Origin: Cymbomonas tetramitiformis
Lineage: Eukaryota; Chlorophyta; Pyramimonadophyceae; Pyramimonadales; Pyramimonadaceae
Assembly (NCBI GenBank): GCA_001247695.2
Contig: LGRX02025804.1
Span: 35,489-99,488 of the forward strand
Direction: 5' to 3'
DNA: 64,000 nt
A program made the translations under genes and the position numbers. How positions within the stretch are numbered: position 1 is the first letter of the stretch; the number at the start of each line of letters is the position of its first letter. The notes beneath the pieces were generated by a model, which was given only the letters and a program-made list of their open reading frames with translations, searched no databases and was not told the DNA's origin. Below, piece after piece: positions 10,861 through 45,731 of the stretch.

Positions 10861-11088
10861 TCAAGGTATGGCTTACGCGAGGTCGACTTTACACAAAACT
10901 TCGGAAAATATTTTTATTCGATAAACATGTCGCTTAAACCAATCTAAACATATTGCGCGCTCTGGGTATACAATTGACCCAGGCATTGAAAAGTTATGGC
11001 CGATACCGCTCGGTTACCTCCCATACTTAACCATACGTAAGAGCACACTTCAATCGCATTTATCTCACGATCTAGAAAATCGGAAGTT
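10861..11088. mobile_element. 264-bp MITE, left 228 bp (split by gypsy)
   Basis: Starts TCAAGGTATGGCTTACGCGA after a TA. Its remaining 36 bp lie at 33127-33162, ending in the complement and followed by TA. 228 plus 36 equals 264, exactly the length of the uninterrupted, inverted copy at 45424-45687. TIRs are about 42 bp; the TA duplication points to a Tc1/mariner-like MITE. Confidence 0.85.
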
Positions 11089-11612
11089 TGTAACAAACGC
11101 CGGCTTCTCATGGTACCGCGCCGGGTTTGTTCAGCTGGTGACACGCATGACAGTGGTGACAGCATGACAGGCTTTGCGAAGATGACCATCTGAGAGATGC
11201 AGGCTTGCCAGAAAAGATATGGTCACTATCGAATGACCAGGGAATGATAAGATGAAGATGGCAGTGACTCCTTTGCCGCTGACGTGTCAATCAGAATGTG
11301 GTAAACGGTAACATTGTTAGAGCTGGCATGGAATAATGACTTTCCATTGGCCAGATGAAGATTTAAGGGCTAGAACCCGTTACAGTTTTGGGAAATGTGA
11401 CAGAGCATTGAGATATAAGTAAGCTCTGACCGGAGGTCAGGCTAGTGGACTCATTATTGTTTTGCTTCGCAAGTACTAGGTGGCTGTTCGCGTGCCAGTG
11501 CTAGAGTGCTAAGACAGTTCTGCTCACAGCTTTTGTACACAATAATTCGTATTTTGTGGTTATAATATCAATTTTGACGGATATATTTTACTGCTGTTTT
11601 TATACTTTTTCA
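11089..11612 (+). repeat. Gypsy-2 5' LTR, lacking its first 221 bp
   Basis: TGTAACAAACG to TTTTTCA, identical to 32380-32903 except G/A near position 11200. The full LTR (32159-32903, 745 bp) begins 221 bp earlier, with TGTTGG. The missing part appears instead at the element's 3' extremity. No TGG primer-binding site directly follows at 11613, so the priming tRNA is not evident. Confidence 0.85.
11411..11422 (+). promoter_or_regulatory. Candidate LTR TATA box
   Basis: GATATAAGTAAG lies in the 3' half of the LTR, where a U3 core promoter is expected; the same sequence is at 32703-32713 in the 3' LTR. No experimental start is implied. Confidence 0.4.
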
Positions 11613-13381
11613 AAACAATAATGTCCTGCGCGGAGCGGCTTTTTATTTCAGTGTTAATCCAGAAGTAAAGACCCTTTGGCGAGAAGTCAGCAGCAGTTTG
11701 TAAGAGCGGATTCGGAAGTCAGGCGACTCCAGGGGCACCCACGGTGCACTGGCGGACCCTTCTTCTTCCCTGAACTTGGTGGTACTTGCACTGAAAGAGG
11801 CTACCAGCGACGGCGGCAACAGATCAGCTCTGAATTCACTAGTGATGAGCGGCCTTCTTCTATCCGGTGATATGCTCAGCACCTTGTTCTGCAGTGAATC
11901 CAGGGGCACCCCTGGTGCACTGGCCTAACTGCTAACAGGTGTTCTTCAGTTTTGAGCTAATCAGCACGGCATGAGCTTGGGCGGCGGCGGCGACAGAGTC
12001 AATCAGCAGTGAATGTGCACCTTGATGAGCACTTCTCAGTGGTTTCTCCAGCTGGCCACCTTGTTTGAAGTGAATCCAGGGGCACCCCTGGTGCACTGGC
12101 TTAACTGAAAGGCAAGTGTGCGTCACCTGGAAGCTAATCAGCGGCGGCATCTGCCTGGACTTACCAGCTAAGAGTGGATCAGCAGTTAATGTGCACCTTG
12201 ATGAGCCACCTCCCAGTGGTTTCTCCAGCTGGCCACCTTGTTTGAAGTGAATCCAGGGACACCCCTGGTGTACTGGCCTAACTGAAAGGCAGGTGTGCTT
12301 GGCCTGGGAGCTAATTAGCGGCGGCATCTGCCTGGACTTACCAGCAAAGAAGCAGATCAGCAGTGAGTTACTGCTCTATGTCTGGAACTTCAACTTACGG
12401 TTTCTTGGGCAGCTCCACCCTGTCTGACGGTTAATCCAGGGACACCCCTGGTGTACTGGCCTAAGCCTGAAGTAGGAAGGAGCTTGCCAGAGGACTAGCA
12501 GCGACATCAGCCCTGAAGGCGACAAGTGAGTGGTCTTTTTAAGCGATATTCACTGGTGTGATACAGTTATCTGGTGGATTCAGAGTTAATTACTTGCCCA
12601 GCCTGGAGTGCTGCTTACCACTGGAGTGACTTTCTAGTTCTTTATCATAATGTGTGGGAGAATTCTTTTATCTTTTCTACAGTATTGGTCAGCTGGTGAG
12701 GCCCTCATATCACCGGTGACCTTCTGAATTAGCCGTGGTGTTGCGAATCCAGGGGTGCTCAGCACACTGGCTTAGCTCCCAACTCTGCACAGCGACCTTG
12801 TTCTTGCTTACTGGACTGGGGAGTGAGCTTCCATGCTAGCTACGGTGCCCTTGATTAGCAGTGGTGTTGTGAATCCAGGGGTGCTCAGCACACTGGCCTA
12901 GCTCACACCGCTGCGTATCAGTGCTATTCTTGGTGCCGTGGAGTTGTCCTCATGTTCGCTGTGCTCCTGATGAACTCTGGCTCAGCTAATCCAGGAGTGC
13001 TCAGCACACTGGCCCAGCTTTAAGCCCTCCTTGCACGAATATTCTGCATCTGCTGCGGATTTAGAGCGTTGAAACACAGTGCTGGACCTCTAGGCGTTCG
13101 CTGGCTGCACGCGTTTCGTTCTTCCGCTTGTTCAGCGAGGTGAATCCAGGGGCACTCAGTGCACTGGCCTAAGCCAGTCTGAATCAAGCCTCCAGTCTGC
13201 TGGTGAACGAGCTTTGCGCTGAGAGAGGGGACTCTTCCTTGGTCCCATTAGCTGAGCATTAACGCAGTACTTTACCACGGAGGGTGAGGCAGAGCCAAGC
13301 GCTGCCTCTGCCCAGTCCAGAGATCGTGAGGCACGACGACTGGCGCGAGAGAGGGTCAGTCAGGACCTTGACACGGGATAT
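11613..13381 (+). other. Gypsy-2 1.77-kb 5' leader with repeated hairpins
   Basis: Untranslated leader between LTR and Gag. It contains nine copies of a motif AATCCAGG..CTGGCCTAA at 11729-11752, 11900-11923, 12076-12099, 12253-12276, 12436-12459, 12749-12770, 12875-12896, 12991-13012 and 13146-13167. Each folds as CCAG/CTGG around an inner stem. The inner stem changes in a compensated way between copies: GCACC/GGTGC, ACACC/GGTGT, GTGC/GCAC, GCAC/GTGC. Spacing is about 175 nt in the first half and 115-155 nt in the second. This points to selection on RNA structure (packaging, dimerisation or translation are possible roles). Small minus-strand ORFs here are shadows. Confidence 0.8.
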
Positions 13382-16297
13382 ATGAGCACAGAGGGATCGG
13401 GTCCAGAATCCATTCCCTCTGCACCGGCATCACCAGCAGCAACAGCGCTCGCAGCAACAGCACTTGCAGCAGCAGTAGCAGCTTCAGCGCCTGCAACTAA
13501 TCAGTTCCTCTTTGCGTTTGACGACGTAGACGAGATGGATTACTATGACAGAGATAGTCACGCACTTGACAAGGAAGATGTCAAGCTCCAGTACACTGGT
13601 GGCAAGAACGAGGATAGGGCGCTCTTTATCAGGCGTTTCGTTGACATGGTAGCGAAAGTACAGCGGGCTTACGAGGCTAAGAAGCGCAGGCACATGAAGT
13701 CAGCGTCTTTTCACGCGCTCAGTCAGCAGCAGAAGAAGGCTTTCGCTGACTCCAAGCCAGACCTCAGATCGTTGTGGGATAGCCTGCCCTCGTTCCTAGC
13801 AGGGGACGATCATTCAACCTCAGTCGCCTATGACTGGTGGTGCGCTGCATACCTGAAGGATGGCATCATGGCCTCACACGCGTGTCATGTCTTGAAGGAT
13901 CTCACCATGAGAGACGCTTTTCAGGGCTCAGTGCGTTGCGCACAACCTCCTTTCCATGAGCTGGCGCCAGGATCGACATGGGCAGTCTGTAAGGTGTTCG
14001 AGGAAGGCGATGCTGATGGCGAAGAGTCTGATGAGTGGGAGAGCGAGGGAACCTCCACTAAGGGTCTCACGGGGACAGATGGCACGGAGGATTCTCACTA
14101 CTTTTGGGCCTTGAGGGCTTTCATTGCAGAGCTCGAAGCCAAGTTCCTGATGAAGGGCACCAAGGAGAAGGAGGATCTGTTGATAGCCAAGCCGCAGACC
14201 ACCGAGCAGGACGGCCTCGCTTACGTGAAGAGCTGTCGTCGCAGGGAGGCAGCGCTCAACATCGGCAAGATGGTGGAAGACCCCATTGTCAGGCAGAACA
14301 TCGAGGAGTGCATCAAGGGTCTGCGCATCAAAGAATACCGAGATCGCGTGTCCGAGCAGTTACGTGTCAGTCATCCTGCCCCCAACAAGGTCACATGGGA
14401 GGACCTGGAGGTCATCGTGGAGGTGCAGGACAAGCTGAAGAACGATGCGGAGGCTTGGGCTCTCACACTGCAGCAGGAGCTGGTTCGCAGACTCTCCTGC
14501 GTGTACTCTTGCTACGAGGCCAGGCAGCTGGGGCTCGACCTGGCTGCACTAGTGGCCGCCATGAGGCGCTCTGGTTCTGCCCCCAAGACTGGGGACAGAC
14601 GCAGGGACCCCAAGAAGAAGGAGCAAGCACAGCATGGTGGCGATGACGCCAAGAAGCCTTCGAGGGAGGTGAACAATGCAGAGCGTCAGAAGCCTACCTA
14701 CGGCAAGGTGCCACCACCTGACGCTTCAAAGAAATTCCAGTGTGATTGGTGCTTCACACGCTTGCCCCACTCTCCAGAGCGCTGCTACACGGGGTGCCGT
14801 GAGGCCCGTGTGCCTCCGAACTTCCACAAGGACAGGCAGAACTCGAAGTGGCCGGATGAGGTCAAGAATGCCCAGATGCGTGCTTACAACATCGCGCACC
14901 GCTTCGACAACCACAAGATGGGGATCACCACCAAGGAGTGGCTTAAGCTCCCAGAGGCCAAGCAGAAGCTACCGCAGCAGCAGCAGCAGCAGCAGGTGGC
15001 GGCCAGTGCTGAGGTCAAGGAGAAGCTCGCTGCAGAATTGACAGGTCTTCAGACAGGGACACCTCCAAAGGGGGACAAGGGCGCCGATGCACAGGCCCGG
15101 TCAGAGGTCAGCGATGCGGAGACTGAGTACGACTCCCACTTCAACCAGCAGGCTGAATATGAGGAGGATGAGAAGGACTGCCCTGCTGATGATGGGCTGG
15201 AGGATACTCATGATGTCGGCATCAGTCACGCACCAGGTCTCCAGGCCAGGGCCGCAGTCGCCTTGGGCAGCACTCAGAAGATGCAGAGCTTCCAGGTCAA
15301 GACGCCGGAGGAGTTCGACAAGGCCGCTCAGGTGCCCAGAGCCGTTCCTCCCAACGTCCTCAGCAGGAAATTCCACCTGCTGGCATCCAATCTTCGCAGC
15401 TCCGTGCGCACTTGCTCGCAGATTGCGGCCATCCTGATGTCCCAGCACGCCATCGAACTCCCGAAGGACATCGAGAACCTCCTGGCGCTGGAGGAGCTCA
15501 TGGGCAACGATCCGAATGATGCGACCGAGCAACCCACCGAGGTCAACGAGCATGCACTTGAGGACACGCACGCCACAGTGATGCAGGGGGTAAGAGAAGA
15601 GGCAGATGGTGCAGAACACCGCGCGATCGAGGAGGTGCCATTGGACGAGATGCCCAACGGTGTGGTCGACAGCGCCGCCGCCCGATGTGCAGCCGCTGCC
15701 TGTGTGGACGACCTGGGGGTGGTTGACTTCAGCGACCATGGACATGTACGAGCTGGCACCATCAAGACCCTCGCCTACGACGCGCTGAGGGCAAAGATGA
15801 AGCAGCACCTGACCGACGAGCAGGTGTTGCTGATGACTCAGGTGCAGCCCATCTGCAAGTTGCGGAATGCCACCCTGTATGAGGGACTGGCGTTGGTGTC
15901 ATCTGGTGGTGAGCTTATGCTATACCGGGCGATCCTCATGGACACCGGCGCCAACTGCAACATCATCTCCATCGCGGTCGTGAGGCGGCTGGGCCTCACG
16001 GTGTACGAGGCCAGCACCGGCGCCAAGGTCACCAGGTGTGACAACAGCCCCACGAAGTTCACGCATTACTGCTACGTGGACGTCATATATACTGGCTGCG
16101 GGCACACCGCACATGACGCTTCACCGGCTATACGCCTTCGTGACCTTCGAGCCCGAGAACTCGTGGGATCTGCTGATAGGCACCGGGCCACTGAAGAACT
16201 CCCTGATGATCGACATCAAGCTTGGAAGTTGCGTGGCCGTGTCGCATGCGCCAACGATTTTGGGCATGGATGCTCAGGTGGTGCTTCCGTTGGTTGA
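13382..16297 (+). CDS. gag: Gypsy-2 Gag and N-terminal part of protease
   Basis: 971 codons. The N-terminus is Ala/Ser/Pro-rich. Residues about 60-400 are a charged helical Gag-like region, followed by a lysine-rich linker. A Cys cluster CDWCFTRLPHSPERCYTGC near residue 455 resembles a zinc finger but is not the CCHC knuckle. A poly-Gln run lies near residue 540, then an acidic stretch. The C-terminal part holds YRAILMDTGANCNIIS near residue 855, the DTGA active site of a retropepsin. The second half of the protease continues in the next frame (16038 ORF), so expression of an active protease needs a +1 shift near 16100-16115, or this copy has an indel. The first ATG after the hairpin leader is used; no upstream in-frame ATG of note. 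Residues after about 915 are read in the wrong frame if the shift is real. Confidence 0.8.
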   Translation: MSTEGSGPESIPSAPASPAATALAATALAAAVAASAPATNQFLFAFDDVDEMDYYDRDSHALDKEDVKLQYTGGKNEDRALFIRRFVDMVAKVQRAYEAKKRRHMKSASFHALSQQQKKAFADSKPDLRSLWDSLPSFLAGDDHSTSVAYDWWCAAYLKDGIMASHACHVLKDLTMRDAFQGSVRCAQPPFHELAPGSTWAVCKVFEEGDADGEESDEWESEGTSTKGLTGTDGTEDSHYFWALRAFIAELEAKFLMKGTKEKEDLLIAKPQTTEQDGLAYVKSCRRREAALNIGKMVEDPIVRQNIEECIKGLRIKEYRDRVSEQLRVSHPAPNKVTWEDLEVIVEVQDKLKNDAEAWALTLQQELVRRLSCVYSCYEARQLGLDLAALVAAMRRSGSAPKTGDRRRDPKKKEQAQHGGDDAKKPSREVNNAERQKPTYGKVPPPDASKKFQCDWCFTRLPHSPERCYTGCREARVPPNFHKDRQNSKWPDEVKNAQMRAYNIAHRFDNHKMGITTKEWLKLPEAKQKLPQQQQQQQVAASAEVKEKLAAELTGLQTGTPPKGDKGADAQARSEVSDAETEYDSHFNQQAEYEEDEKDCPADDGLEDTHDVGISHAPGLQARAAVALGSTQKMQSFQVKTPEEFDKAAQVPRAVPPNVLSRKFHLLASNLRSSVRTCSQIAAILMSQHAIELPKDIENLLALEELMGNDPNDATEQPTEVNEHALEDTHATVMQGVREEADGAEHRAIEEVPLDEMPNGVVDSAAARCAAAACVDDLGVVDFSDHGHVRAGTIKTLAYDALRAKMKQHLTDEQVLLMTQVQPICKLRNATLYEGLALVSSGGELMLYRAILMDTGANCNIISIAVVRRLGLTVYEASTGAKVTRCDNSPTKFTHYCYVDVIYTGCGHTAHDASPAIRLRDLRARELVGSADRHRATEELPDDRHQAWKLRGRVACANDFGHGCSGGASVG

Positions 16298-19220
16298 CAT
16301 GACACCACCCAGGCGTCCCCACCTGCCCAGGCGGGTGGACCCAGTGGTGTGTTTGCAGTCGGAGATCTTTGGGCAGGGGATGGAGTGCGAATGGCTAGAG
16401 CACCCACCTCTGAGCACAAGGGAGGAGAGGTTTGCTGCCTCTGGGATTCAGCCTGAGCACATCGATGACGTCTACGTGTCACCATTGGGGTCACCAGCGT
16501 CTTCGTCGAGGCCTCCTGCTGAGCCCCCACGACCCCAACTCGCCACGCGCGCGGAGGTCGAGGAGAGGTGTCGCAGTCACACATGTTCCCTTGAAGGTGG
16601 CCGAAGGAGTGACCTGGCGTCACTGGCGCCTGCCGTACAGGCAGCGTCGGAGTGCATGCTCGCACAACTCTACGCAGAACCGAACCCCTGGGAGGGTGGA
16701 CGCGCGAGGTGGGTCACTGAGGACCAGGTGGTTGGGGGTCGTCCGTCTCTGGATGCCCCTCTCGACCACAACTGGGCGGATCAGAGACTGTACCTGGACC
16801 GGCACCATATCGCGCGTCTTTGCCGCATCCTTCAAGACCTTCCCAAGGACATGCCGGCCAGACCTTCCCAAGAACATGTCTGCGTGGAGTTCGTCCGTTG
16901 TCTCGAGCAGAAGTGGGTGATGGTGGACCAGCTGATGCCCCCTAACTGGCTGTATGTGGACCAGAAGCTGGATCACGATGAGGAGAAGGACCGCTGGGTG
17001 CTCAATGGGAGCTACATGACACACGTGCCGTCCTCTGCCAGCAAGCAGGACGTCGTCAAGCCCAGGGAGCGAGGCAGATCGCGCGACAGCCTCAACCCGA
17101 TCCAGCGACTGCAGGACACGCTCCAGGCGTTGTTCATATACCCCAGTGGCGAGGTCACTGGCACCCTCATGTGGGACCTGAAGGAGCGTGTCCTCTGTGT
17201 CCAACCGAGCACAGCCACGCAGTACCTCGAGCTGATGCGCTGCAGGCTGGATCATGCGCTCGTGTACAACAGTGAGGAGTTGCTGGACGAGCTCCAACTC
17301 CCTCACTGGTACGAGAGCACTGGTGTCTGGACATACCAGCTGCTCAGGTACCTTTGCCCGGTGGACATGGAATCCCTCTCGGTTGGCATCCTCCGACAAT
17401 ATAATCGACATGGCAGCGAGGGGCCACCTCTGGAGCTCATCTCACTGGGTTCGAACACCAAGTACTACCCAGTGGGGGATGGTCTTGGGGGGCCTGGCAG
17501 GGTGTTCTCCGAGAATGCCGCTGCCCAGGAGTACGTGCGCCTGGGGGAGATGAGGAAAATGCTCAAGTCGGTCAACACCAGGCAGCAGGGCTACGATGCG
17601 CTCGAGGCAGATGCAAGGCGTAGGCCGCCACCGCCCAACAACATGGTCAACACGAGGCTCACGAAGCGAGCCCCTGCGCAGCCACCTGCTCCTGCCGCAG
17701 GCGCAGGACCATCCCAGGCTGTCGCAGGGCCATCTCGAGCCAGGTCCAGCAGCCGCTCGCCACCGCGCTTGTCGCACATCGCACGACCATCTCAGGCTGT
17801 CGCGGGGCCATCTCGGGCCAGGTCCAGCAGCCGCTCGCCACCGCACTTGTCGCACATCGCACACTGCCGTACGCCGTCGCCATCATCCAGCGGCATTGGG
17901 CCCGAGGACTTGATGTCACCTCGACTCGTTTGCGCCACCGCGGCTTGGCCGTCAGATCCTGCTGACAGCCCTTCTCGGGGGAGGTCGCCCCCTGCATCGC
18001 CCGCTATGACCAACGCTGGCTCGTGGGCGGACTCGATCCGTGTCCCACGTGATTCCCGATCACTTTCCCCGGGGGGGCCGCCTCCTACGCCTCCGAGTCC
18101 ACCACGGGCGAATCGCCTGCCTCGGTCCCCTGCGAGGGCGCCTCCATCTCCAGCGGGGTCAGATTGGGATGCCGCACGAATGGCCACCACATCCGACAGT
18201 TCAGTGTGCAAATTTCTGTCCGTGGAGGAGGTGAGAGCCTTGAAGGACCGCCGCAACCTTACCGTCTTTATGGTGCGGTTTGGCGTGACGTTCGTTGACC
18301 GTTGCAGGGGCCAGCGAGTCGTGTACGAGCTTGGCGTGTGCAACCAGGAGCGAGGTCTCAGGCTGCGGAAACATCCGGGTATCACCAGCAAGGTCGCCAA
18401 GAAGCATGACAAGACCATCGCGTGCGGAGACCGGGGCTGGCGCCTCCCTCTTGGGGGACAGACAACGTCGTCCAACCTGCTAGAGGCTATGATTTCAGCC
18501 TACGCTGATCTGTCGCACCGTGGCTCAGGGCACAGGTTGCCCGGGGGTCATGCGAGGAACATTGCGTACTCGCTGTGCGCCTACGTGGAGCTTGGGGCAG
18601 CACACGTGCTGCGCTGCATGGCGCACCCAAATGCCACACCAGTGTACTACATCTTCATGGAGGACCAGCGATGTCGTACTTGGCACGCTGAGTTCACAAA
18701 CGAGTACTTCATGCGAGATGACCGGAAGTTCACATGCTTGCAGTGGGGGACCAGGGAGGTGGCCGCGCCGTGGTTGCTGCCAGCCCTGGGGGCCTTGGAG
18801 GCGCTGCGTCTCCCGCCGCCGCCGCCGCCGCCCGCCCATCAGGCTCGCGTGGCCGAGCGATCCGAACACGTGGATACGGCCTGGCGAAGGAATGTGCACG
18901 AGGTTCGCGACCCCTCTGCGCGTCATCAGGGCCGGCCTTCTGGCCGGACGTCTGAGCATCAGCCGGGCGCGGGCGGTGCTGCGCGCTCATCTGCCCCTTC
19001 TGTCGATCGCCATGGGGCTGCTACCCATGTCGTCCATGCGTCGAGGGCGTCCAGGATGCCGGCCAGTCATGACTCACGCCGTCCTCCTTCTCCGGCTGTT
19101 TCAATATGCAGCGAGGTGACGGAGGCGTTCGAGCGCCATACGGACGAACAACGTGAGGCGCAGCGACAGCACGCGCATTTTCATCAGGGCTCCCCGGGCA
19201 CAGCGGGCGGGTGGCCCTGA
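16038..19220 (+). CDS. Gypsy-2 protease C-terminus and unexplained polyprotein region
   Basis: Open for 1060 codons in frame +1 relative to Gag. The useful part starts near 16110: LYAFVTFEPENSWDLLIGTG is the second half of the retropepsin (LIG flap). After that I recognise nothing for about 1000 residues. Near residues 530-620 is a Pro/Ser/Arg-rich segment with two tandem copies of a unit containing PSQAVAGPSRARSSSRSPP. A more globular Cys/His-containing block follows near residues 715-910 (for example VCKFLSVEEVRALKDRR and LQWGTREVAAPWLLP), then a low-complexity tail. A single TGA at 19218-19220 separates it from the next ORF in the same frame, so stop readthrough or a recent nonsense mutation is possible. 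Gypsy pols normally go from protease to RT within 100-200 residues, so this region is a large addition. The 16038 ATG itself is unlikely to be a real start. Confidence 0.6.
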   Translation: MTTAPRSSRITATWTSYILAAGTPHMTLHRLYAFVTFEPENSWDLLIGTGPLKNSLMIDIKLGSCVAVSHAPTILGMDAQVVLPLVDMTPPRRPHLPRRVDPVVCLQSEIFGQGMECEWLEHPPLSTREERFAASGIQPEHIDDVYVSPLGSPASSSRPPAEPPRPQLATRAEVEERCRSHTCSLEGGRRSDLASLAPAVQAASECMLAQLYAEPNPWEGGRARWVTEDQVVGGRPSLDAPLDHNWADQRLYLDRHHIARLCRILQDLPKDMPARPSQEHVCVEFVRCLEQKWVMVDQLMPPNWLYVDQKLDHDEEKDRWVLNGSYMTHVPSSASKQDVVKPRERGRSRDSLNPIQRLQDTLQALFIYPSGEVTGTLMWDLKERVLCVQPSTATQYLELMRCRLDHALVYNSEELLDELQLPHWYESTGVWTYQLLRYLCPVDMESLSVGILRQYNRHGSEGPPLELISLGSNTKYYPVGDGLGGPGRVFSENAAAQEYVRLGEMRKMLKSVNTRQQGYDALEADARRRPPPPNNMVNTRLTKRAPAQPPAPAAGAGPSQAVAGPSRARSSSRSPPRLSHIARPSQAVAGPSRARSSSRSPPHLSHIAHCRTPSPSSSGIGPEDLMSPRLVCATAAWPSDPADSPSRGRSPPASPAMTNAGSWADSIRVPRDSRSLSPGGPPPTPPSPPRANRLPRSPARAPPSPAGSDWDAARMATTSDSSVCKFLSVEEVRALKDRRNLTVFMVRFGVTFVDRCRGQRVVYELGVCNQERGLRLRKHPGITSKVAKKHDKTIACGDRGWRLPLGGQTTSSNLLEAMISAYADLSHRGSGHRLPGGHARNIAYSLCAYVELGAAHVLRCMAHPNATPVYYIFMEDQRCRTWHAEFTNEYFMRDDRKFTCLQWGTREVAAPWLLPALGALEALRLPPPPPPPAHQARVAERSEHVDTAWRRNVHEVRDPSARHQGRPSGRTSEHQPGAGGAARSSAPSVDRHGAATHVVHASRASRMPASHDSRRPPSPAVSICSEVTEAFERHTDEQREAQRQHAHFHQGSPGTAGGWP
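17701..17865 (+). repeat. Two tandem copies of a ~78-bp coding repeat
   Basis: Two in-frame copies encode PSQAVAGPSRARSSSRSPP followed by LSHIA. The repeat keeps frame, which argues that this part of the polyprotein is translated. Confidence 0.65.
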
Positions 19221-20280
19221 TGCACAACCAACGCTGTGGCCGTGGGCTGCCTGCACAGGCAGTCCACTTGCTTGAGGCCAGGTGTCCTGCGGGCGTGTAT
19301 CTCGTTTGCGGGCAGTGCAGTGGTTTGGTGGTGGCTGGGACGCGGTCCCATTCCCATGGCCGCCGTGTGGGCGATGTGGGAGTCGATGGCATGGCACTTG
19401 TCATGGTGCCCTTTTCAAGTTTGGTGGAGGCGCTGCGTGGCCTCGTTTTTGAGCCAGCTGCCAGTATGGTGGTCGTCTGCTCGACGTTATCCCCGTCGCG
19501 CATCTTACGACATTTGGATCTTATGGGCTCTCGCCTGCGTTTGGTACGTTGGGTTGCTCATCGTGCGCGCCGCGGGCATCTATGCTGGCGTGCACCGTGT
19601 TCGTGCAGAAGGTTGGATGGTGGTGCCCCTTCGGGGGGTGGTCGTTTCCTTGGCATGCTGGTCACAGTGTGCGGCCGCCCTCCTCCTCGTGGTCCTCGCC
19701 TGGCTTTGGGTTTGTACCAGCATTTACGCTGAGGACGTGGCGTGCCACGCCTCCTGTATCGTGCACGACCCGCTGGACGCAGGTCACATTCGACGTGGCC
19801 GTGGATGGACTATTCCGTCCCTGCGTTGGTCCCAAGTCTTCTTGTTGGGCCGCGTGTGCCTGCCCGCTTTGCCGGCCAGGTTGGACAAGCCTCGCTTCGC
19901 GGCGCGCTGGACGCAGCTTCGACGCAATCTCCGCCTTCATCGCATCGCGCAAGCCGCCTACATGGCGCTTGTCCTTGCAGTCGTGGTCTCCACCGCCGCT
20001 GGTGGGAGTACTCGCTTGGCGCACGGGGGGTGGAGAGTAATGGCGTGCTTCTTCGCTTCGAACTCGCCGGCAGCTGCAGTGCATTTCAACCGAATTTTGC
20101 GGTTTTTTCTGCTTTTGTGCGGAATCTTGTGGGTCGCTGGCAAGCTGACCGAGAGTGTGCCTACGTATGATGTCATGTCACCCACGCGCAGTGCCTGGGG
20201 TTCGTCCCCCTGCACTTCTTGGGAGGCTCAGCAATCCTCAAGGCAATGGGAGCCGGGCTGGGAGGCCAACGTCGCGGAGC
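19221..20280 (+). CDS. Membrane-like segment upstream of RT in the Gypsy-2 pol frame
   Basis: The pol frame is open from the codon after the 19218 stop (first ATG at 19236). Its first ~330 residues are unlike any gypsy domain I know: Trp-, Cys- and Val-rich, with four stretches hydrophobic enough to span a membrane. These are near 19505-19585 (WILWALACVWYVGLLIV), 19645-19735 (AAALLLVVLAWLWVC), 19955-20010 (MALVLAVVVSTAAG) and 20093-20150 (ILRFFLLLCGILWVAG). Normal-looking polyprotein resumes by 20280 (VLPYTVLDELQPLGD). Options are a captured membrane-protein exon, an env-like module moved upstream of RT, or an intron or wrong-frame stretch that happens to be open. Overlapping ORFs in the other frames make the last option real. 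Confidence 0.4.
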
Positions 20281-23803: not shown

Positions 23804-23822
23804 ACCCTACAAAATAGGGATT

Positions 23823-24890
23823 ATTCCAAAGGCTTGGACGGCACCATTCCGGGCGCCCGGAACCGTCCTGAAAATATTTGGTAAAATTCCAAGCCTTTGG
23901 AAACCGCCAGGAATTGCAAGGTGAAGCTTTGGGTTTTTCCCTAGGAGTCCTATGGGGTTCCAAGCCGATGGTCCTACGGGGTTCCAAGGGGCTGGACCGA
24001 AATTTGTTAGTCCAATGGGTCCTGGTCGATTCCAAGCCGTTGGACCTATGTCCTCGGATTGCGTATGACCGAAGTCGTCGGTCCAAGGCGGTTCCAACGG
24101 TTTGGAATTCATTTTGGACAATTCCAAGCCTTTGGAACTTTCCAGTCTGAGGTCGGCAGTCTGAAATCGGAGGTTCAACGGCTTGGAACCCCATTGGACC
24201 GGTCTCCGCGCAGCACGGGCGTGGTTTCAAAAGATTCCAAGCCTTTGGAACTTGCTAGTACGAGTAATGAAGCTCGAACCCGGAGGCTCAACGGCTTGGA
24301 ACCCCATTGGACCGGTCTCAGCGCAGCACGTGCGAGGGTTTCAAAAGATTCCAAGCCCTTGGACCTTGTTAGTACGAGGAATGAAGCTCAAACCCGGAGG
24401 CTCAACGGCTTGGAACCCCATAGGATCGGTCTCTGCGCAGCACGGGCGTGGGTTTCAAAAGATTCCAAGCCCTTGGACCTTGTTAGTACGAGGAATGAAG
24501 CTCGAGCCCGGAGGCTCCACGGCTTGGAACCCCATAGGACCGGTCTCTGCGCAGCACGAGCGCGGGTTTCAAAAGATTCCAAGCCCTTGGAACCCCATAG
24601 GCCCAGTCTCTGGGCAACACGGGAGCGTGTTCCGAAATTCCAAGCCCTTGGAACTTCCCGATCTGAGAGCGGAACGCTATGAGCAAGTGCTTGATATATA
24701 GACTGATAATTCTCTGGACCGATCATTCTTGCTACGTGCAGTTCAAGACCGTCCAAGCCTTTGGAACGATTATGGAAGTGATATCTTATGGTGTCCAGGC
24801 TTAGTCCAATGGTTTGGAACCGCTTCGGAACTTGCGTTTGACGGATTCCAAGGCGCATCCAAGCCTTCGGAACCCCTTTGGAACTCCAGG
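23823..24890. repeat. E1 left subterminal TCCAAGCC..TTGGAA repeats
   Basis: Dozens of copies of TTCCAAGCCTTTGGAACC and variants, imperfectly palindromic through TTCCAA/TTGGAA. From 24175 to 24610 they sit in a ~116-bp tandem unit (about four copies) containing GGACCGGTCTC and GCGCAGCACG. All ORFs here, on both strands, are products of the repeat. Confidence 0.8.
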
Positions 24891-25479
24891 TAAGTTAGTA
24901 TTATCTGTACAATGCGTGTTATATATTACAGTATATTTACAACTGGTAGGTTCTGACTTGGCAGCACGTGGTGCTCAACGAGACCGATACACTAAGTGAA
25001 GTGACTTGGAAGCTGTTAAATTGGATCCAAGGCGCCCGTAGTCCCGGGTCCACTGTTGACCTTGTTCTGAGCAGAGTGCTACTCCGAACGAGGCTTGCCT
25101 CAAATCCGGCGACGCGTTAAAGCGGCATGCACCATCGAAGAAAAGCAATCCCTTTCGTGGGGCTGAGTCTGGCTCGTGTCCCTGTTCGAGACAACAACCA
25201 CACCAGAGCACTCTTCCTTTCAGGAGAAATGCTCCTCGAAAATCGCACCCCGGTCTCTACCGGGCCCCAATCTTGTGGAAAGGGATGGACGATTTTCGAG
25301 CCTGGCCACTTCCGGTGTGCTACTCGTGTAGAGTAACCCACCCGTCGTGGTCAGTACTCTAACCGTCCAGCATCCCCATGTTAAAGGGAGGCTTCTATGA
25401 CGGACGGGCACCAGGTGGTCCGTGCAGGCAAGATAATTGGCATTAATTGCCTGTATTTGCGAAGCACTCCAATTTAAGA

Positions 25480-25795
25480 TATGCATCCCAAAGTCCGAAA
25501 CCCAGTGTTCCGAAGCTGACCCACGAAATCTAACGTAGAGCAAAAAAACAAATCCAAATTCGAAATCCAGGATCCCGAAGACTGAAATCTGAAATCTAAC
25601 GTAGAGCAAAATCAGCCAAATCGAAATTTCGAAAATCTAACGTAGAGCAAAAAACAAATCCAAAATTCGAAAATCCAGCATCCCGAAGACTGAAATCTGA
25701 AAATCTAACGTAGAGCAAAATCAGCCAAATCGAAATTTCGAAATCTAACGTAGAGCAAAAAAACCAAATCCAAAATTCGAAAATCACTTTCCAGG
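25480..25795. repeat. Short repeat AATCTAACGTAGAGCAAAA in E1
   Basis: Five or six copies, two spacings, joined by AAATCCAAAATTCGAAAATC words. The same 19-mer occurs in the MULE region at about 53842 and 53916, and inverted at 56080-56205, so it is shared between unrelated elements. Confidence 0.7.
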
Positions 25796-25817
25796 TCAAT
25801 TTAACGTGACCGATACA

Positions 25818-26315
25818 TTAAGTGATGGCTCTAAAGGTGTTCCAAAGGCTTGGACGATGCTTGGACTCTTCTTCGTGGGGGAATCCAAGGTTGTTCCAAA
25901 GGCTTGGACGGGGCTTGGATATTGTTAAACAATGGTTCCAACGGCTTGGACGGGATTTAGAACTCACCGAGTCGGACGATGCATACTCAATCGGGCTGAA
26001 GAAGTTTTCACGGATCTTCCGGAGCATCCGTTCGGCATGGTCATGAAGATATGTGTCATCCCCGTGTTCTTCCTCTTCGTCCGTCTCTGACGGTGGATCC
26101 GTCTCACCGTCATCATTCACACTTTCGGGACCGTCAAGAGAGTCGTTTTCTTCATGATCTCGGTCATTGGAGAGGCGTGCGACGGGCGGATGTAGGATCA
26201 AATGCCGCCTAATCTGTTTTTTGGAGTAGCAAAATCGGAGTCTGCATTGATCGCATGGGCATGGAGTGCCTTCCGCGTTCTCGTTTCGAGCTAGTCCACG
26301 CCTTTGCCTAGCCAT
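25818..26315 (-). CDS. E1 transposase N-terminal exon (zinc-finger-like)
   Basis: Minus-strand frame starting MARQRRGLARNE (ATG at 26313-26315; an upstream in-frame ATG at 26379 adds 22 unconvincing residues). It encodes TPCPCDQCRLRFCYSKKQIRRHL, a CxCxxC...H pattern like the N-terminal finger of CACTA/Plavaka-type transposases, then a strongly acidic stretch (SETDEEEEHGDD). The exon at 58.2-58.4 kb in E3 has the same plan (VCDCGACHSS...RHR, then acidic). The catalytic part is absent from E1. The last ~45 residues run into repeat sequence. Confidence 0.5.
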   Translation of the reverse strand: MARQRRGLARNENAEGTPCPCDQCRLRFCYSKKQIRRHLILHPPVARLSNDRDHEENDSLDGPESVNDDGETDPPSETDEEEEHGDDTYLHDHAERMLRKIRENFFSPIEYASSDSVSSKSRPSRWNHCLTISKPRPSLWNNLGFPHEEESKHRPSLWNTFRAIT

Positions 26316-26379
26316 TATTCCTGCGAATCCATGTAAGAAGTGTGAGTTGTCTGACCGGACTTGTAAGGTTTTCAGATGC

Positions 26380-27270
26380 ATTCCGGGCGCCCGGACCCAT
26401 GGTCCGGCGCGTGGGAACGTAGTTCCGGGCGGTCGGAATTAAATACCTTCAACATTCGGCAAAAGTCCGGTTTGTCACCTTTACATCAGGGTTTCTACGT
26501 TTTTAGGCACAATCCGGGCGCCCGGACAGGCCAGGGATTACGGTGTCCATCGGTTTGGAAAAGCCATCTTAAAAATCGACTAGGTCCACTTCTGGGGATT
26601 AATCCAGAGGCTTGGAAGTCCATTGGAATGGGACATTTGCTCCCACTTGAAAAATTCCATGCCTCTGGAATTCCAAAGTGAAGCATTGGAATCGCACAAA
26701 GTTATTTAGAACGTTTTGAGGATTGCAAAAATCACCTAAGGACCAATATTCCAACGGGTTGGCCCACTCAAACCAATGGCATGGAACTTTTTTGGTAAAA
26801 ATCGACTAGGTCCACTTCTGGGGGTTTATCCAAGCCCTTGGAAGTCCATTGGAATGGGACATTTGCTCCCACTTGAGAAATTCCATGCCCCTGGAATTCC
26901 AAAGTGAAGCCTCTTATTTCAAAGCTTAACACTTGGCTGTTTTTTGTGTAAAAAGCCCAAAAAACAAAATTTCGGAAAATTTTCTGTTTTTTTGAAAAGT
27001 GGACATATGTTTGGCCCCGATGTTTTTGATATGCAGCGACGTGAAAAATGCAGAAAAATTGTTTTCTACCGTCAATTATGCACATCTTACGGGAAATTTC
27101 TAAAAATAGAGCTGCGACGAATTCTGTAGAAGGACTTGCTCCAAAAATAAAAAGCAACAGTCCAGAAAACAGAAATATACAGTATAGCGATGGACTGCTC
27201 AGATCGAAGATTAAATTGGATTCGTCGTGCACGAATGGTTGGATCGACTGCTCAGTCTTTCGCCGTACGT
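26380..27270. other. E1 interior, no recognisable gene
   Basis: Contains GGGCGCCCGGAC palindromic words (26385-26530) and a duplicated ~100-bp block (26575-26690 and 26805-26910: TCGACTAGGTCCACTTCTGG and following). ORFs on both strands are not recognisable. Confidence 0.5.
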
Positions 27271-27274
27271 AGTA

Positions 27275-27400
27275 TAATCGCGAGTAATCGCGAGTAATCG
27301 CGAGTAATCGCGAGTAATCGCGAGTAATCGCGAGTAATCGCGAGTAATCGCGAGTAATCGTTAGTAATCGCGAGTAATCGCGAGTAATCGCGAGTATCGC
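27275..27400. repeat. TAATCGCGAG decamer array
   Basis: About twelve nearly perfect tandem copies of TAATCGCGAG, one with TAATCGTTAG. Its inner TCGCGA is palindromic. 27400-28560 beside it shows no gene I can support. Confidence 0.85.
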
Positions 27401-28559
27401 GACCTTTGAAGACGATGGATTTTCAAATGGCTAGACGAACGGTACTCTGTGACTGTGGACTGTGGACACAGTGAAGACCCGACACTTTACAATACGGAAC
27501 TTCATATTTCACCTCAACGCCGTCGAAGACTTGCAGTATTGTATGTCCAGGTTTGTACTGTAATTATCTATATGAGCTTAGCCGTGTCTTCTTTCTTCTC
27601 ATTTTTCGCAAGATTACTTTGTGGAGATCTGCAGGAAATTCTCCGGTGACGCTCGGGTCCGGGACGTAAACGCGATTCCAGGAAGTCTGAAAGATCTCTG
27701 CGGCGGAGTTATTCAAACGGTACGGGCTCAATTCGCTGTGACACTGAGAATGCCGCAACGACAGTTCTTGAACGTACCTGCCGTTATCTAGCAGCCTTGC
27801 ATGTTGCGCGCGCAGAGTTGTTTTCAGCATTTTGTTTGAAAACAGTTCAGCATCATCGTAGTAGCAACACCGTATCATTAATCCCACAAACCTGCACTTT
27901 TAAAAATAGCGTCAGCCCAAAATAGTACCGATGCTCGAGAATCGGCCATAACACGCCGGTATGTTTTCCACATATGCGTGTAGAACTGAGCTTTGTGTTT
28001 TACTTTTTCAGGGATTGGTACCGCCCGGGTCGAGAATTGCTCTATCGCAGGTAAGACTGTTTAAACGTTGGATCTGATTTGCGTTTCGTTGACTGAAGTT
28101 TATTATTTTACTTGCGGTTCGGCGTCTGATGAACGCTGATTTTGTTCTGTTTTACGGCATGTTCGCAGGTCGTGTTTCAAGTGCGTCGGTGCTTGCAATT
28201 AGCGGAACAGATTTCAATTTAAAAGTTTCAAACTAATTAGAGTAGTTTTAAGAGTAGTTTCGAAAGCTTGCAGCTTTCGGTAGAATCCCTGACTTGTGAT
28301 AGCATTATTAGCCTGAACCTAGATCCCACGCACTTGTAACTCTGTCAAGTAATGTTATTTATCCAATGATGATGACGTATTTGCAACTTAGCATCGCAAC
28401 CTTTAAACTTTCTGTGTACAGCATGCACACGACATCATAATGTATGTGTGCAAAGAAACATGAAAACAATGTAGCAACAATTGCAAGTGTATTTTGGAAC
28501 TGCGCGGTACCCCTTAACCCTGCATACCTGCATATTCTCACTGTAAATGTATTTGGAGC

Positions 28560-29500
28560 CATGGTCCCAAGTCTTTGGAACCATGTCCGTTTAAGCCTTT
28601 GGAGCCATATATGTTTAAGCCTTTTGGAAACGTTGTTCCAAATCGTTGGAAATGCGGTTCCAAGCGTTTGAAATTAATGAAATGTATGAAGCAAAATAAA
28701 TGTATTTGGAACCATTGTTCCAAGCCTTTGGAACATGTCCGTCCAAGCTTTTGGAAACATTGTTCCAAAGCCTTGGAACAATGGAACCTGGCCATGCAAT
28801 TCTCGTTTAACAGATTCTAAGCCCCGTCCAAGCCCTCGGAACTCGCTTGGAACCTTAATTTAACAGCTTCCAAGCCCTTGGAATCACGTTGGAATCTCTG
28901 TTTAACTGAGTCCAAGCCCTATCCAAGCCCTTGGAACCCCCTCGGAAACTTCTTTTGACGGAGTCCAAGACCCGTCCAAGTCTTTGGAACCCCTTTGGAA
29001 CCTGTTTTTTTGCAGCGTCCAAGCCCTTGGACCCTCCTCGGAATCACCGTTTGGCAGAGTCTAAGCCCCGTCCAAGCCTTTGGAACCCCATTGGAATGCC
29101 CGTTTAACAAGGTCCGAGCCCCGTCCAAGCATTTGGAACCCCCTTGGAATCGCCAATCTAAAAAAATCCTATGGGAATCCAAGCCGATGGTCCAAGCGGG
29201 TCCAACGGGGTTCCAAGCCGACGGTCCAAATGGGTCCTACGGTATTCCAAACCGACGGTCCAACGGCTTGGAAACCGATTGGAATTTTATGTAAATTCCA
29301 AGGGGGTTCCAAGGGCTTGGATAGCAAATGTCCAGGTCCAAGCCCTTGGACCGCGGCTTGGACGGGGCTTGGACCTGGACATTTGCTGTCCAAGCCCTTG
29401 GAATTCCCAGTGTTAACGCCAACGCCTCTCAAACACATACCTGTCCTACCGGGTCCTATGGGGTTCCAAGCCGACGGTCCAAGCCCTTGGAATAATCCTT
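28560..29500. repeat. E1 right subterminal TCCAAGCC..TTGGAA repeats
   Basis: Counterpart of the left zone: repeats of TCCAAGCCCTTGGAACC spaced roughly 25-60 bp. The ORF that starts at 29080 opens in this zone and runs by chance into the gypsy pol frame at 29512. Confidence 0.8.
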
Positions 29501-29511
29501 ATTTTGTAGGG

Positions 29512-30860
29512 AGATTCGAGGACTTGATGGCCAGCGTGGCCGAGCAGCAGGTAGACCGTGACAAGCATCGAGATGTACACGATGATGCATGGTGCCTCAG
29601 ATGGTTGAAGTCCAATGGCAGCGTGAGGTTGCCAGAAGAGGAAGTTCGTCGTGTGAGGAGACGAGCAGCACGACATCGATGGGATGAGGCTACGGACGAG
29701 ATCTACATGGTCACGCTGTCGGGCAAGGAGGTGAGAATACCTAAGCCTGCTGACCGTCTCGCGTTGGTTAAGGAATACCACTCCAGAACTGGACATTGGG
29801 GCATAAGGCGTACGCAGCATCTTTTGTGGCAGCGCCATTGGTGGGCCGATTTGAAGAAGGACGTGGAGGCTGTGGTCACTCAGTGTGAGACCTGTCAGCG
29901 TGTGAAAACTCATTATGCGAGAGAGGAGGCATGTTTATCCCCCCTCGAGATCGTGTCGTTCATGTATCGCTGGTCGCTGGATTTGGCATGGCCTTCAAGG
30001 AGGCAGACCAAGACTGGCAACAACCGAGTGCTCATCATGACCGAGCACTACACCAGGTTCATAGTCTGTGTACCCATTCCCGACAAGGAGGCAAGGACCA
30101 TCGCAGCGGCATTTCGCAGTCATGTCCTGGCTGTGTTTGGTGCGCCAGCAGAGTGCTTGGTGGATGGAGGTAAGGAGTTCGAGGGCGAGTTCAAGCAGCT
30201 GTGCAGAGACTGCCTGATCGACCGACGAGTCACCTCGCCAGACTCACCAGAGGGCAATGGGCTGACCGAGCGAGTGGTGCGCACTATGAAGTTTTGCTTC
30301 AAGAAGCTTGCCTTGGAGAAGGGTCTCGATTATGAGTGGGATGAGCAGCTCTGGCCACTAGTGCTGAGTTATAATGCAGCACGCCAGGAGTCCACGGGGG
30401 TGGCGCCGTTCACCATGTTGTTTGCCCAAGAGGCAGTAGTGCCGCCCGATTTGAAGCAGGCACCCAGCATAGATTTCGGTGCTGAGGTCGAAGATGAGAA
30501 GGATGCCAGAGTCAAGGACCTCCTCCGGAGAGCACAGGTGGTGAGGCGACTGATGGTACACGCTGGTTGCAGCCTGGAGGTCGCACAGCATCGTGATACA
30601 TTACATTATGAAGGGAGAAGGGGTGGGGGCTATGAGCCTAGGCCACACCAGTTTAAGGTGGGCGATTTCGTCTACATCAGGCAGAAGCCTCGCAGCGGCA
30701 TGGAAGTCGCGACCAAATCCGCCATTCTGAAGCTGGTCAAGATACAGCGAGATGGTGTGGTGGTGCTTGAGGACGCCGCCAAGTTAAGAGAGAAGAGCAC
30801 TGTGCAGAGCATCGCGCCATGTCACCTACAGGTGAAGGACCAGTATGACTGCAGTGCAGC
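29512..30860 (+). CDS. pol: Gypsy-2 integrase
   Basis: Continuation of pol after E1. The zinc-binding domain is EYHSRTGHWGIRRTQH...VVTQCETCQR (HHCC). The DDE core has YRWSLDLAW (first Asp), ECLVDGGKEFEG (second Asp) and GNGLTERVVRTMK (Glu). Then VGDFVYIRQKP near 30660 resembles the GPY/F-type C-terminal module that binds DNA. The enzyme joins the cDNA to host DNA; the 4-bp duplication AGTT around this element is consistent. No inactivating change is seen. The apparent ATG at 29080 is in E1 and should not be used. Confidence 0.9.
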
Positions 30861-31030
30861 CGTTCCCAGCAAGCACCTAGCATGTGAAGCGTGCAGGAAG
30901 ACTGATGGGGAAGCAGAGATGTTGTTGTGCGACGCATGCAACAGGGGGTACCAATTGTGGTGTCTGACCCCAGCACTGAATGGAGTACCAGAAGGCGAGT
31001 GGCTATGTCCCAGGTGCTCAGGCACGGGGA
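30860..31030 (+). CDS. Gypsy-2 PHD-like finger, one zinc ligand replaced
   Basis: After integrase, the frame encodes CEACRKTDGEAEMLLCDACN, RGYQLWCL and GEWLCPRC: the C4HC3 spacing of a PHD finger, a chromatin-reading fold that commonly binds histone H3 tails. The canonical GYHxxC histidine is Gln here, so one ligand of the second zinc site is missing in this copy. A PHD finger next to integrase could steer insertion to marked chromatin; that is inference. Confidence 0.75.
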
Positions 31031-31499
31031 TGCAAGCTGCCAACGCTGAGGTGCAGACCCAGAAAGACGAGAGCTCTGGCGTCCTAGAGGACAGACTGGG
31101 CATGAAGGAGCAGCAATTGAACGAGAAGCTGTCTGCGGAAATGCGCCTGCTGCCAGCAGACGTGGGTCCCCGTCGTGTGGTGAAGGGGGACAAATTTCAG
31201 CCATGGCATGCCATCTCATCAAGGGAGATGTTATTGAAAGAGAAGGACATGTTCTTGGGCATGCCAGATCAGATTGATTGGGGAAGACAGGACAAGCTCT
31301 CTGAGGCCGTGCAGATCTTCATGCCAGGGCACTGGAATGAGGGGCATCGCACGGTGCTGAGCAAGAAATATCGGGAACAGAAGGCCATGGCAAGGCAGCT
31401 GAGGGATGCACCTCTTGTGCCTGCGTTGGCTGAAGAAGAAGTTGAAAGACGAGGAGAATTGAGACACATGACTAAGGCTCAGGTGAGAGAAGCTAGCGC

Positions 31500-32121
31500 A
31501 CTGCAGTGGGGGCTTGAACTGGTCATCACAGTGCCCTCCGAGGTGAGGCGTTTGGCGACAGAGGTGGACTGGAAGTCCGTCGATGGCGTGTGGGACCCAT
31601 GGGCAGGCACTGGGGTCATCAGTGAGGTAATGGTGGAGCAATGGCCGCAGTTGAGATTTATGAATAATGACTGGAACTCTCAGTTGGGTTGGTCTGAGGC
31701 GCATGACGCACTTCAGCCAGGTAACTATCGCATATGGAAGGAGAAGTATGGTGTCTGTGACGCAGTGGTGACTTCGCCTTGGTTTGCAGCGCTGGATATC
31801 GCGTTTCCATTGGCAGTGATGGCCAGTCGTGTGGTGGCATGTGTCCACGTTCCATCTTACTACTTGACAGACATGACCGAGAGCAGGGCTGCGTACTTCA
31901 GACGATTGAGTCAGACGGGACGCTTGCATGTGATTGGGCATCTGGAACATGGACCTATTGGCCGCAGGTGTATGTGGGTCTTGGTGTTCAAGAATCCGCT
32001 GGTCAGAGCCAGGATGTTACAGGGTGGAGAAGGTGAAGGCATTGGTATGTTCACTTTCAGCTTGGGTAAGTTCATGGCAGATGGTGATACGACCCAGTAT
32101 GCTGAACAAGCCCATATTTGA
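31500..32121 (+). CDS. Gypsy-2 C-terminal amino-methyltransferase-like domain
   Basis: The last ~200 residues of the pol frame carry VWDPWAGTGVISEVMVE (31588-31638), a Rossmann SAM-binding loop, and about 50 residues later DAVVTSPWFAALDIAFPLAV (near 31758-31815). TSPWF occupies the place of the (N/D/S)PP(Y/W/F) motif of N6-adenine and N4-cytosine methyltransferases, with Pro-Trp in place of Pro-Pro. It is followed by the beta strand VVACVHVPSYYL. The stop is at 32119-32121, about 25 nt before the polypurine tract. It may be active, or a non-catalytic DNA-binding relic. A coiled, charged region (31040-31500) links it to the PHD-like finger. Confidence 0.6.
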
Positions 32122-32146
32122 GTCTGTGCTACTGCACGCAGCAGCT

Positions 32147-32158
32147 ACAGATGGGGGA
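32147..32158 (+). promoter_or_regulatory. Polypurine tract
   Basis: ACAGATGGGGGA directly precedes TGTTGG, the true start of the LTR. A purine run next to TG is the plus-strand primer site of LTR retroelements, and it fixes the LTR start at 32159 rather than 32380. Confidence 0.75.
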
Positions 32159-32903
32159 TGTTGGAAATCTGGGCTTGCATGTAAGAGCTTAGCGTTCGAT
32201 CTCGGAATATCAGAATTTTAAAAAATTTGTAGCTCTACGATCTTGTGCTGTGTTGAGAATTGCTTGAACAGTTACCGGCACCAGTGAATGTTAATGACGA
32301 ACTTATGACCAGCCGCGAGTGTTAAGCTTGCTCGATTCCGAGAATGTTCGTACCATCATATGCACGCGTTTGCGACAGCTGTAACAAACGCCGGCTTCTC
32401 ATGGTACCGCGCCGGGTTTGTTCAGCTGGTGACACGCATGACAGTGGTGACAGCATGACAGGCTTTGCGAAGATGACCATCTGAGAGATGCAGACTTGCC
32501 AGAAAAGATATGGTCACTATCGAATGACCAGGGAATGATAAGATGAAGATGGCAGTGACTCCTTTGCCGCTGACGTGTCAATCAGAATGTGGTAAACGGT
32601 AACATTGTTAGAGCTGGCATGGAATAATGACTTTCCATTGGCCAGATGAAGATTTAAGGGCTAGAACCCGTTACAGTTTTGGGAAATGTGACAGAGCATT
32701 GAGATATAAGTAAGCTCTGACCGGAGGTCAGGCTAGTGGACTCATTATTGTTTTGCTTCGCAAGTACTAGGTGGCTGTTCGCGTGCCAGTGCTAGAGTGC
32801 TAAGACAGTTCTGCTCACAGCTTTTGTACACAATAATTCGTATTTTGTGGTTATAATATCAATTTTGACGGATATATTTTACTGCTGTTTTTATACTTTT
32901 TCA
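32159..32903 (+). repeat. Gypsy-2 full 3' LTR (745 bp)
   Basis: TGTTGGAAATC to TTTTTCA, with TG..CA ends. It consists of a 219-bp part (32159-32377), the dinucleotide GC, and the 524-bp part (32380-32903) shared with the 5' LTR. The boundary reads GCGACA-GC-TGTAAC, whose centre ACAGCTGT is a perfect palindrome resembling joined LTR ends. Confidence 0.85.
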
Positions 32904-33122
32904 TGTTGGAAATCTGGGCTTGCATGTAAGAGCTTAGCGTTCGATCTCGGAATATCAGAATTTTAAAAATTTTGTAGCTCTACGATCTTGTGCTGTGTTG
33001 AGAATTGCTTGAACAGTTACCGGCACCAGTGAATGTTAATGACGAACTTATGACCAGCCGCGAGTGTTAAGCTTGCTCGATTCCGAGAATGTTCGTACCA
33101 TCATATGCACGCGTTTGCGACA
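32904..33122 (+). repeat. Extra partial LTR (first 219 bp) at the 3' extremity
   Basis: Copy of 32159-32377 with one difference in an A/T run, joined without a gap to the CA end of the full LTR. It ends GCGACA, followed by the duplicated AGTT and the rest of the MITE. Together with the 5' LTR lacking exactly this part, the element is circularly permuted. Confidence 0.85.
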
Positions 33123-33126
33123 AGTT

Positions 33127-45396: not shown

Positions 45397-45423
45397 AGAC
45401 GTGTGGAAGATGCCTAGAAGATA

Positions 45424-45687: not shown

Positions 45688-45731
45688 TATATGAAACGTC
45701 TTCCAGGCACCTTATGGGTTTCATTTCTTAC

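Follow-up and report, generated by a model that had tools for sequence, protein, structure and literature searches.

A gypsy-type retrotransposon of Cymbomonas tetramitiformis with outer ends at a palindrome inside its long terminal repeat

How does a retrotransposon with an integrase come to lie in a genome with its outer ends inside its own long terminal repeat (LTR)? This question is raised by a gypsy-type element of 22 kb at 11085-33126 of a 64,000-nucleotide stretch of Cymbomonas tetramitiformis DNA (contig LGRX02025804.1, positions 35,489 to 99,488; hereafter the window). Between two copies of AGTT it reads B-internal-A-GC-B-A, where A and B are the two parts of the LTR (Table 1). The comparisons reported here make it probable that this permuted layout is the normal integrated form of the family, and that the integrase habitually linearizes a two-LTR circle by cutting a palindrome within the LTR.

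Ends and signals of the element

Both B copies of the window element measure 524 bp and both A copies 219 bp, with a single difference in each pair. At the joint 32903/32904 the CA closing B directly adjoins the TG opening A, and a GC dinucleotide (32378-32379) sits between the first A (A1) and the second B (B3). The duplication is counted as 4 bp given an element running from TG to CA, since the letters alone permit 4 to 6. A miniature inverted-repeat transposable element (MITE) is interrupted by the insertion; another copy of this MITE, found in minus orientation in the same window, aligns gap-free across the joined flanks with AGTT present once, and the insertion is consequently clean. The layout with AGTT at its extreme ends, the CA/TG junction of two LTRs and the outer boundaries had all been proposed in the initial annotation and were confirmed by coordinates, repeat comparison and the empty site. 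Its exact figure of 264 bp for the rejoined MITE did not hold, as this measures 270 bp when counted with its 44-bp inverted ends.

The polypurine tract ends at 32158, directly against A, which supports the earlier definition of the LTR made by reverse transcription as A-GC-B. The primer binding site that follows the left B, AAACAATAATG, has as its reverse complement CATTATTGTTT, found at 11452 within B. Its complementarity to 11452-11464 spans 13 nt, and it is the sole one of 20,487 internal 11-mers with a reverse complement in B. The presumed RNA start lies at CATTATTG within B. Because the polypurine tract abuts A and a presumed Tf1-like self-priming site follows B, the complementary DNA (cDNA) should carry LTRs of the form A-GC-B, with the ends TGTTGG and TTTTTCA.

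As an inverted repeat, the outer ends match at 10 of 12 positions (TGTAACAAACGC versus the opposite end, which in reverse complement reads TGTCGCAAACGC), compared with only 3 of 12 for the ends defined by reverse transcription. Random TGT/ACA pairs from the element reached 10/12 in 319 out of 200,000 draws. Inside the LTR the same end sequences meet as ..GCGACA GC TGTAAC.., with ACAGCTGT at the centre. Judged by these letters, the outer ends look like an integrase site, and their placement at this palindrome with the GC missing, as first proposed, is supported.

Copies elsewhere in the genome

Family copies were collected by DNA searches with A (the best 40 of 2,281 candidates scored; these come from 31 contigs and were treated as 31 loci, the overlapping L001 and L002 being counted once) and with B (the best 40 of 2,053 scored, 30 loci taken), so that the copies examined are the best-scoring ones and not a census. 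At the right end, 24 of the 31 loci had the order internal-A-GC-B-A, one of them with an extra A-GC-B unit (L011) and one with a shortened B (L022). They represent 22 insertions, because the right flanks of L005/L009 and L015/L032 each recur on two contigs. The remaining seven (L004, L007, L008, L019, L023, L028 and L031) were truncated, rearranged or other. Over loci L001-L066, 29 distinct right flanks stood straight after ..GACA (..GCGACA in all but L025), while 15 distinct left flanks stood straight before TGTAAC; a sixteenth left entry, L015, was dropped as an internal 6-bp repeat. Thirteen of these left ends lead into the internal region, and four more such left ends were read in other copies. 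A conventional left end, A-GC-B-internal, occurred at none of these 17 places. On contigs C16003, C366, C16689, C17793, C19816, C20953 and C3532 the left end was not reached or the 5' parts were unlike. All untruncated outer ends read in the genome lie at the palindrome.

Among the copies read, the permuted layout is the norm. A one-off permutation was rejected on this ground, and the expectation in the initial annotation that most copies would be A-B...A-B, with the window copy exceptional, was not borne out; its reading of the window copy as a two-LTR circle cut at the palindrome remains the favoured one.

Both ends were readable on eight contigs, two ends on one contig and strand being taken as one copy. 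Exact 4-bp duplications enclosed five of the eight copies, namely AGTT (window), AGCA (C13888), TACA (C4057), GCTC (C10126) and GGAC (C16576). These duplications, together with the gap-free empty site and the 29 right and 15 left flanks that share the same ends, speak against an assembly artefact, which the near-identical repeats and an assembly in 25,745 contigs might suggest and which we hold to be extremely unlikely.

The LTR-LTR joint was compared across copies as well. Among 41 terminal A starts listed for loci L001-L066, a count that includes overlapping loci and repeat entries of the same copies, 39 come after ..CTTTTTCA. Outside this list stands L022, where B is cut at about position 460 and followed by GGGGGA and then A, that is, to all appearances a shortened U5 (unique 5' region) with polypurine letters kept. 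As exact GGAC duplications enclose it, this odd joint probably entered with the insertion. Other joints are one letter short (L057), have two letters extra (L098) or contain an inverted piece of B (L031). The existence of such defective joints points to joints made anew, and the LTR-LTR joint accordingly looks like a newly made one in these sequences. Head-to-tail arrays of at least three A-GC-B units, with joints 746-748 bp apart, were also seen at L069 (C2012:2300-5500) and L070 (C6730:400-3000).

In 23 copies, two insertions being counted twice, A1 and the terminal A (A2) differed by a mean of 2.26 within copies compared with 4.55 between copies, and no shuffle out of 20,000 gave so low a value. 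Where both B and both A repeats were read (five copies), 23 substitutions fell in ~2,559 B positions, besides 5 gap letters, and 11 in ~1,095 A positions; by these counts, the B and A repeats appear to be of about the same age. A1 and A2 could also be kept alike by gene conversion.

These data bear on the possibility that the permutation arose once and has been inherited by some other copying route, B plus A being the real LTR and no circle being formed. The uniform layout would suit this, as would the outer ends TGTAAC..GCGACA, which look like ordinary LTR ends. However, the polypurine tract and the primer site abut A and B and not the outer ends, A2 is closer to the A1 of its own copy than to the A1 of other copies, and joints with polypurine or extra letters require newly joined ends. 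We therefore regard this alternative as very unlikely, and favour the repeated opening of a two-LTR circle.

A second, diverged family shows a similar arrangement. The integrase end of an element on contig C17135 is 77% alike to the window family over ~340 bp of DNA, and its right end repeats the polypurine tract of that family, followed by A' of 218 bp, GC, B' of 416 bp and a further A', with ACAGCTGT kept (one copy). The alignment of A' with A and of B' with B is confined to ~50 bp about the palindrome and a few opening letters. The left end of this copy was not found in the stretch read, and the right and left ends described for the family come from different copies. Its primer site was predicted from the RNA-start motif in B' ahead of the search, and the resulting pattern, TTTTACA+AAACAAAAATG, occurs 245 times in the genome versus once in the control. 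The six plus-strand places heading the list of 245 were read, and all six consisted of flank, B' and primer site, with flanks that were all different. Their B' were 75-87% alike to that of C17135; one left end starts with TCTCACA and not TGTCACA, and the motif CATTTTTGTTT is exact in five of the six.

A proposed route through a two-LTR circle

The following route is proposed. The RNA would start in B and end in the second B, and its 5' end would prime reverse transcription in the fashion of Tf1, giving a cDNA with LTRs A-GC-B. The cDNA ends TGTTGG and TTTTTCA would then be joined to a two-LTR circle, as the joint and its variants suggest. As judged from the outer ends, the element's integrase would cut both strands after CA in ACAGCTGT inside one LTR, setting the GC free, and the opened molecule would be inserted with a 4-bp stagger, in keeping with the duplications. 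The product, B-internal-A-GC-B-A, would retain promoter, primer site, polypurine tract and palindrome, and because the first three are retained the next round would yield the same permuted form. The evidence for this route is sequence, i.e. the layout, the duplications, the empty site, the positions of primer site and polypurine tract, the inverted repeat of the ends, the joint variants and the two families.

According to the initial annotation, the circle explanation would fail if all family members shared the permuted form. This does not follow, since the polypurine tract and primer site still imply conventional cDNA ends; the circle survives a shared form because such ends are still called for and defective joints point to joining anew. 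With the permuted form the norm among the copies read, conventional cDNA ends expected and the joints apparently newly made, the circle route seems to be a habit and not an accident.

Several observations weigh against this reading. The circle, the start and end of the RNA and the integrase as cutter are all inferred from sequence evidence, and retrovirus papers, in the portions considered here, call two-LTR circles dead ends (PMC5314604, PMC2538528). Among the eight copies with both ends read, the duplication on C396 is off by one letter (CAAC/AAAC), and C12716 and C2656 have no matching duplication (2/8), possibly owing to recombination between copies. The right flanks of L018 (2469-2482) and L025 (2473-2486) are like the B start over 8-9 letters, so these right ends may be less plain than others, and L025 lacks a matching duplication. 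For A1, the closest A2 (ties included) was that of the same copy in no more than 16 of the 23 cases. L004 terminates in A, without GC-B-A; as a clean one-LTR-circle insertion it is unusable, since its left side is truncated and the host element incomplete. Lastly, a 20-mer across A-GC-B occurs 1,261 times versus 228 times for one across B-A (5.5-fold; controls 0), an excess that counts here because a conventional family would also give it.

Of the first six places listed for the A-GC-B 20-mer, five, all on contigs that lack an exact B-A match, were read. Three of the five (L098, L100 and L102) proved to be polypurine tract-A-GC-B-A followed by flank, with A ~88-91% alike and the letters of the B-A 20-mer altered, one (L101) is truncated within B, and in one (L099) the reading stopped short of the far end. 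Letter differences between subfamilies thus account for at least part of the excess, and the ratio is not decisive genome-wide because related subfamilies vary in the letters of the B-A 20-mer. L099 (C92:22160-23260) seems to belong to a third lineage, whose alignment covers no more than 36 bp preceding and 56 bp following the palindrome boundary. As the alignment survives only there, the presumed cut site is the best-kept part of its LTR.

The nearest rival is a linear multimer, i.e. head-to-tail cDNAs or extra LTR units in which the integrase cuts two palindromes. Extra A-GC-B units in L011/L053 and on C2012 and C6730 fit such a substrate, but unequal exchange can also build arrays, and for a two-LTR circle a single cut at the palindrome suffices, with a product that has exactly one repeat unit, as in the common form seen at 23 of 31 loci. 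We consider the multimer rather unlikely and the circle the better substrate.

Coding content and known relatives

In a Pfam scan the pol domains follow the Ty3/gypsy order, with RVT_1, RT_RNaseH and, downstream, Integrase_H2C2 and rve. The rve match, at 30.7 bits, is just below its cut-off of 32.6; the integrase residues D, D and E are visible by eye in the translation, with 34 residues separating the last two. As for gag and protease, open reading frames (ORFs) 1 and 2 gave no Pfam match. Copies bounded by full LTRs at the ends defined by reverse transcription were not found among those read, the untruncated outer ends lying at ACAGCTGT, and because this standard LTR-bounded form was tested for and not encountered, the element is labelled gypsy-type by its predicted domains and not a standard Ty3/gypsy member.

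Table 1. Features of the element and its surroundings, in window coordinates
Feature	Position	Strand	Remark
Interrupted MITE, left part	10858..11088		right part 33127-33165
Target duplication AGTT, left	11085..11088		sequence comparison
Terminal repeat on the left, part B of the LTR alone (B5)	11089..11612	+	repeat comparison
TATA-like ATATAAG	11413..11419	+	begins 39 bp upstream of presumed RNA start
CATTATTGTTTTG, presumed RNA 5' end and self-primer	11452..11464	+	complement of primer site
Primer binding site AAACAATAATG, 11 nt	11613..11623	+	directly 3' of left B
ORF 1, gag position	13382..16297	+	without Pfam match
ORF 2	16038..19220	+	without Pfam match
ORF with reverse transcriptase, RNase H, C5 DNA methylase	19236..23924	+	3' end enters nested insert
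Nested terminal inverted repeat (TIR) element, 5.7 kb, splits pol	23805..29511		CCCTACAAAATA inverted ends, AGA duplication
ORF with H2C2 zinc, integrase core (rve), PHD finger	29080..32121	+	start inside nested insert
Polypurine tract AGATGGGGGA	32149..32158	+	abuts A
Internal copy of LTR part A (A1)	32159..32377	+	repeat comparison
Palindrome ACAGCTGT, presumed integrase cut site	32375..32382		GC 32378-32379 absent from outer ends
Second copy of LTR part B (B3)	32380..32903	+	repeat comparison
Right terminal repeat, LTR part A (A2)	32904..33122	+	LTR-LTR joint at 32903/32904
Target duplication AGTT, right	33123..33126		sequence comparison
Second, uninterrupted MITE copy (empty site)	45421..45690 (start approximate)	-	arm 45459-45690, 90%

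The seven best protein matches, with 69-99% identity, were all from Cymbomonas tetramitiformis. Four further proteins (P0025-P0027 and P0031) had 32-38% identity to the integrase ORF, and P0027 combines methylase, RNase H, integrase and PHD domains. Given these likenesses and the joint domain set of P0027, the lineage may extend beyond Cymbomonas. No relatives of the element were found in viral contigs. The nested TIR element, which is absent from family copy L096, gave a weak Transpos_assoc match under its cut-off and is presumably CACTA-like; tandem repeats with TCCAAGCC-like motifs were seen inside it at 24110-24637 and 28806-29482. Elsewhere in the window, four tandem repeats spaced 318-322 bp apart lie at 39503-40760, three of them with a tRNA-like call of undefined identity.

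With its layout B-internal-A-GC-B-A, the Cymbomonas element has split direct repeats, a feature of PAT and Ngaro. According to parts of two papers, PAT, Ngaro and VIPER share such repeats in the order A1-internal-B1-A2-B2 (PMC4157794, PMC6681497), and this identical order, A-internal-B-A-B (PMC4157794), could indicate a DIRS/PAT/Ngaro-type element integrating by tyrosine recombinase. However, PAT, Ngaro and VIPER are described as having a tyrosine recombinase and no integrase gene (PMC4157794), in contrast to the integrase and 4-bp duplications of the Cymbomonas element. No tyrosine recombinase was found among the 12 ORFs scanned, while integrase domains are present, and the duplications vary between sites and differ from the GC at the internal boundary. 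DIRS membership was rejected on the domain evidence, and integration by tyrosine recombinase is scarcely credible. To our knowledge, DIRS, PAT and Ngaro integrate without target duplication, and the Cymbomonas family departs from this in its exact duplications (5/8). Chlamydomonas TOC1 and REM1 are further algal elements reported to have unusual LTR arrangements.

A close likeness is shown by KnitGypsy-Dnmt3 of Klebsormidium nitens, which has gypsy domains, a cytosine methyltransferase in pol and DIRS-like repeats. The Cymbomonas element fits this type by its features, i.e. gypsy pol, cytosine methyltransferase and DIRS-like repeats. De Mendoza et al. (2018, PMC5890265), in the legend of their Fig. 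4, call the KnitGypsy-Dnmt3 repeats "the same as that of a DIRS retrotransposon"; the words "circular" and "target site" are absent from the main text of that paper, and, as far as it is covered here, it gives no integration route, palindrome or self-priming, unlike the present analysis. The split-repeat layout is consequently already known in gypsy elements, and it is the evidence on mechanism that is new here. Our proposed route was not found in the literature on permuted, split or displaced LTRs, algal gypsy split repeats and KnitGypsy, a coverage to which subscription journals mostly did not belong and which yielded PMC1905944, PMC4157794, PMC5890265 and a paper on fungal DIRS elements (PMC3783388).

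Tf1 integrates via the LTR ends defined by reverse transcription. The 11-nt primer site of the Cymbomonas element, being the complement of what are presumed to be the first 11 nt of its RNA, would be Tf1/sushi-like, but unlike in Tf1 the ends of the element are displaced into the LTR. In Tf1, according to the part of the description considered, the first 11 RNA bases pair with the primer site (PMC7175516). Likewise from partial accounts, foamy virus integrase makes a double-strand cut in the palindrome of the LTR-LTR junction, with a 2-nt 5' overhang as the result (PMC1180852), and HIV-1 (human immunodeficiency virus 1) integrase also cuts the palindrome at the two-LTR junction (PMC1905944). 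The proposed double-strand cut after CA at a palindrome, with its 2-nt 5' overhang, would resemble that of foamy virus; in foamy virus and HIV-1 the palindrome forms at the LTR-LTR joint, whereas in Cymbomonas its place is within the LTR, away from the joint.

If the integrase site is the palindrome within the LTR, as proposed, the linear cDNA ends would go unused. It seems more likely than not, if less so than the route itself, that these elements form a gypsy-type clade for which the two-LTR circle is an obligatory precursor, and whose split repeats are convergent with those of tyrosine recombinase elements. Whether circular two-LTR cDNA can be a true precursor of integration was an early question about retroviruses, and a family whose intact outer ends, in every case read, look circle-derived would offer a natural system for it. 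Such elements may be misplaced by LTR finders built to expect a full LTR on either flank. If the proposed route is true, the split repeats of tyrosine recombinase elements can also go with an integrase.

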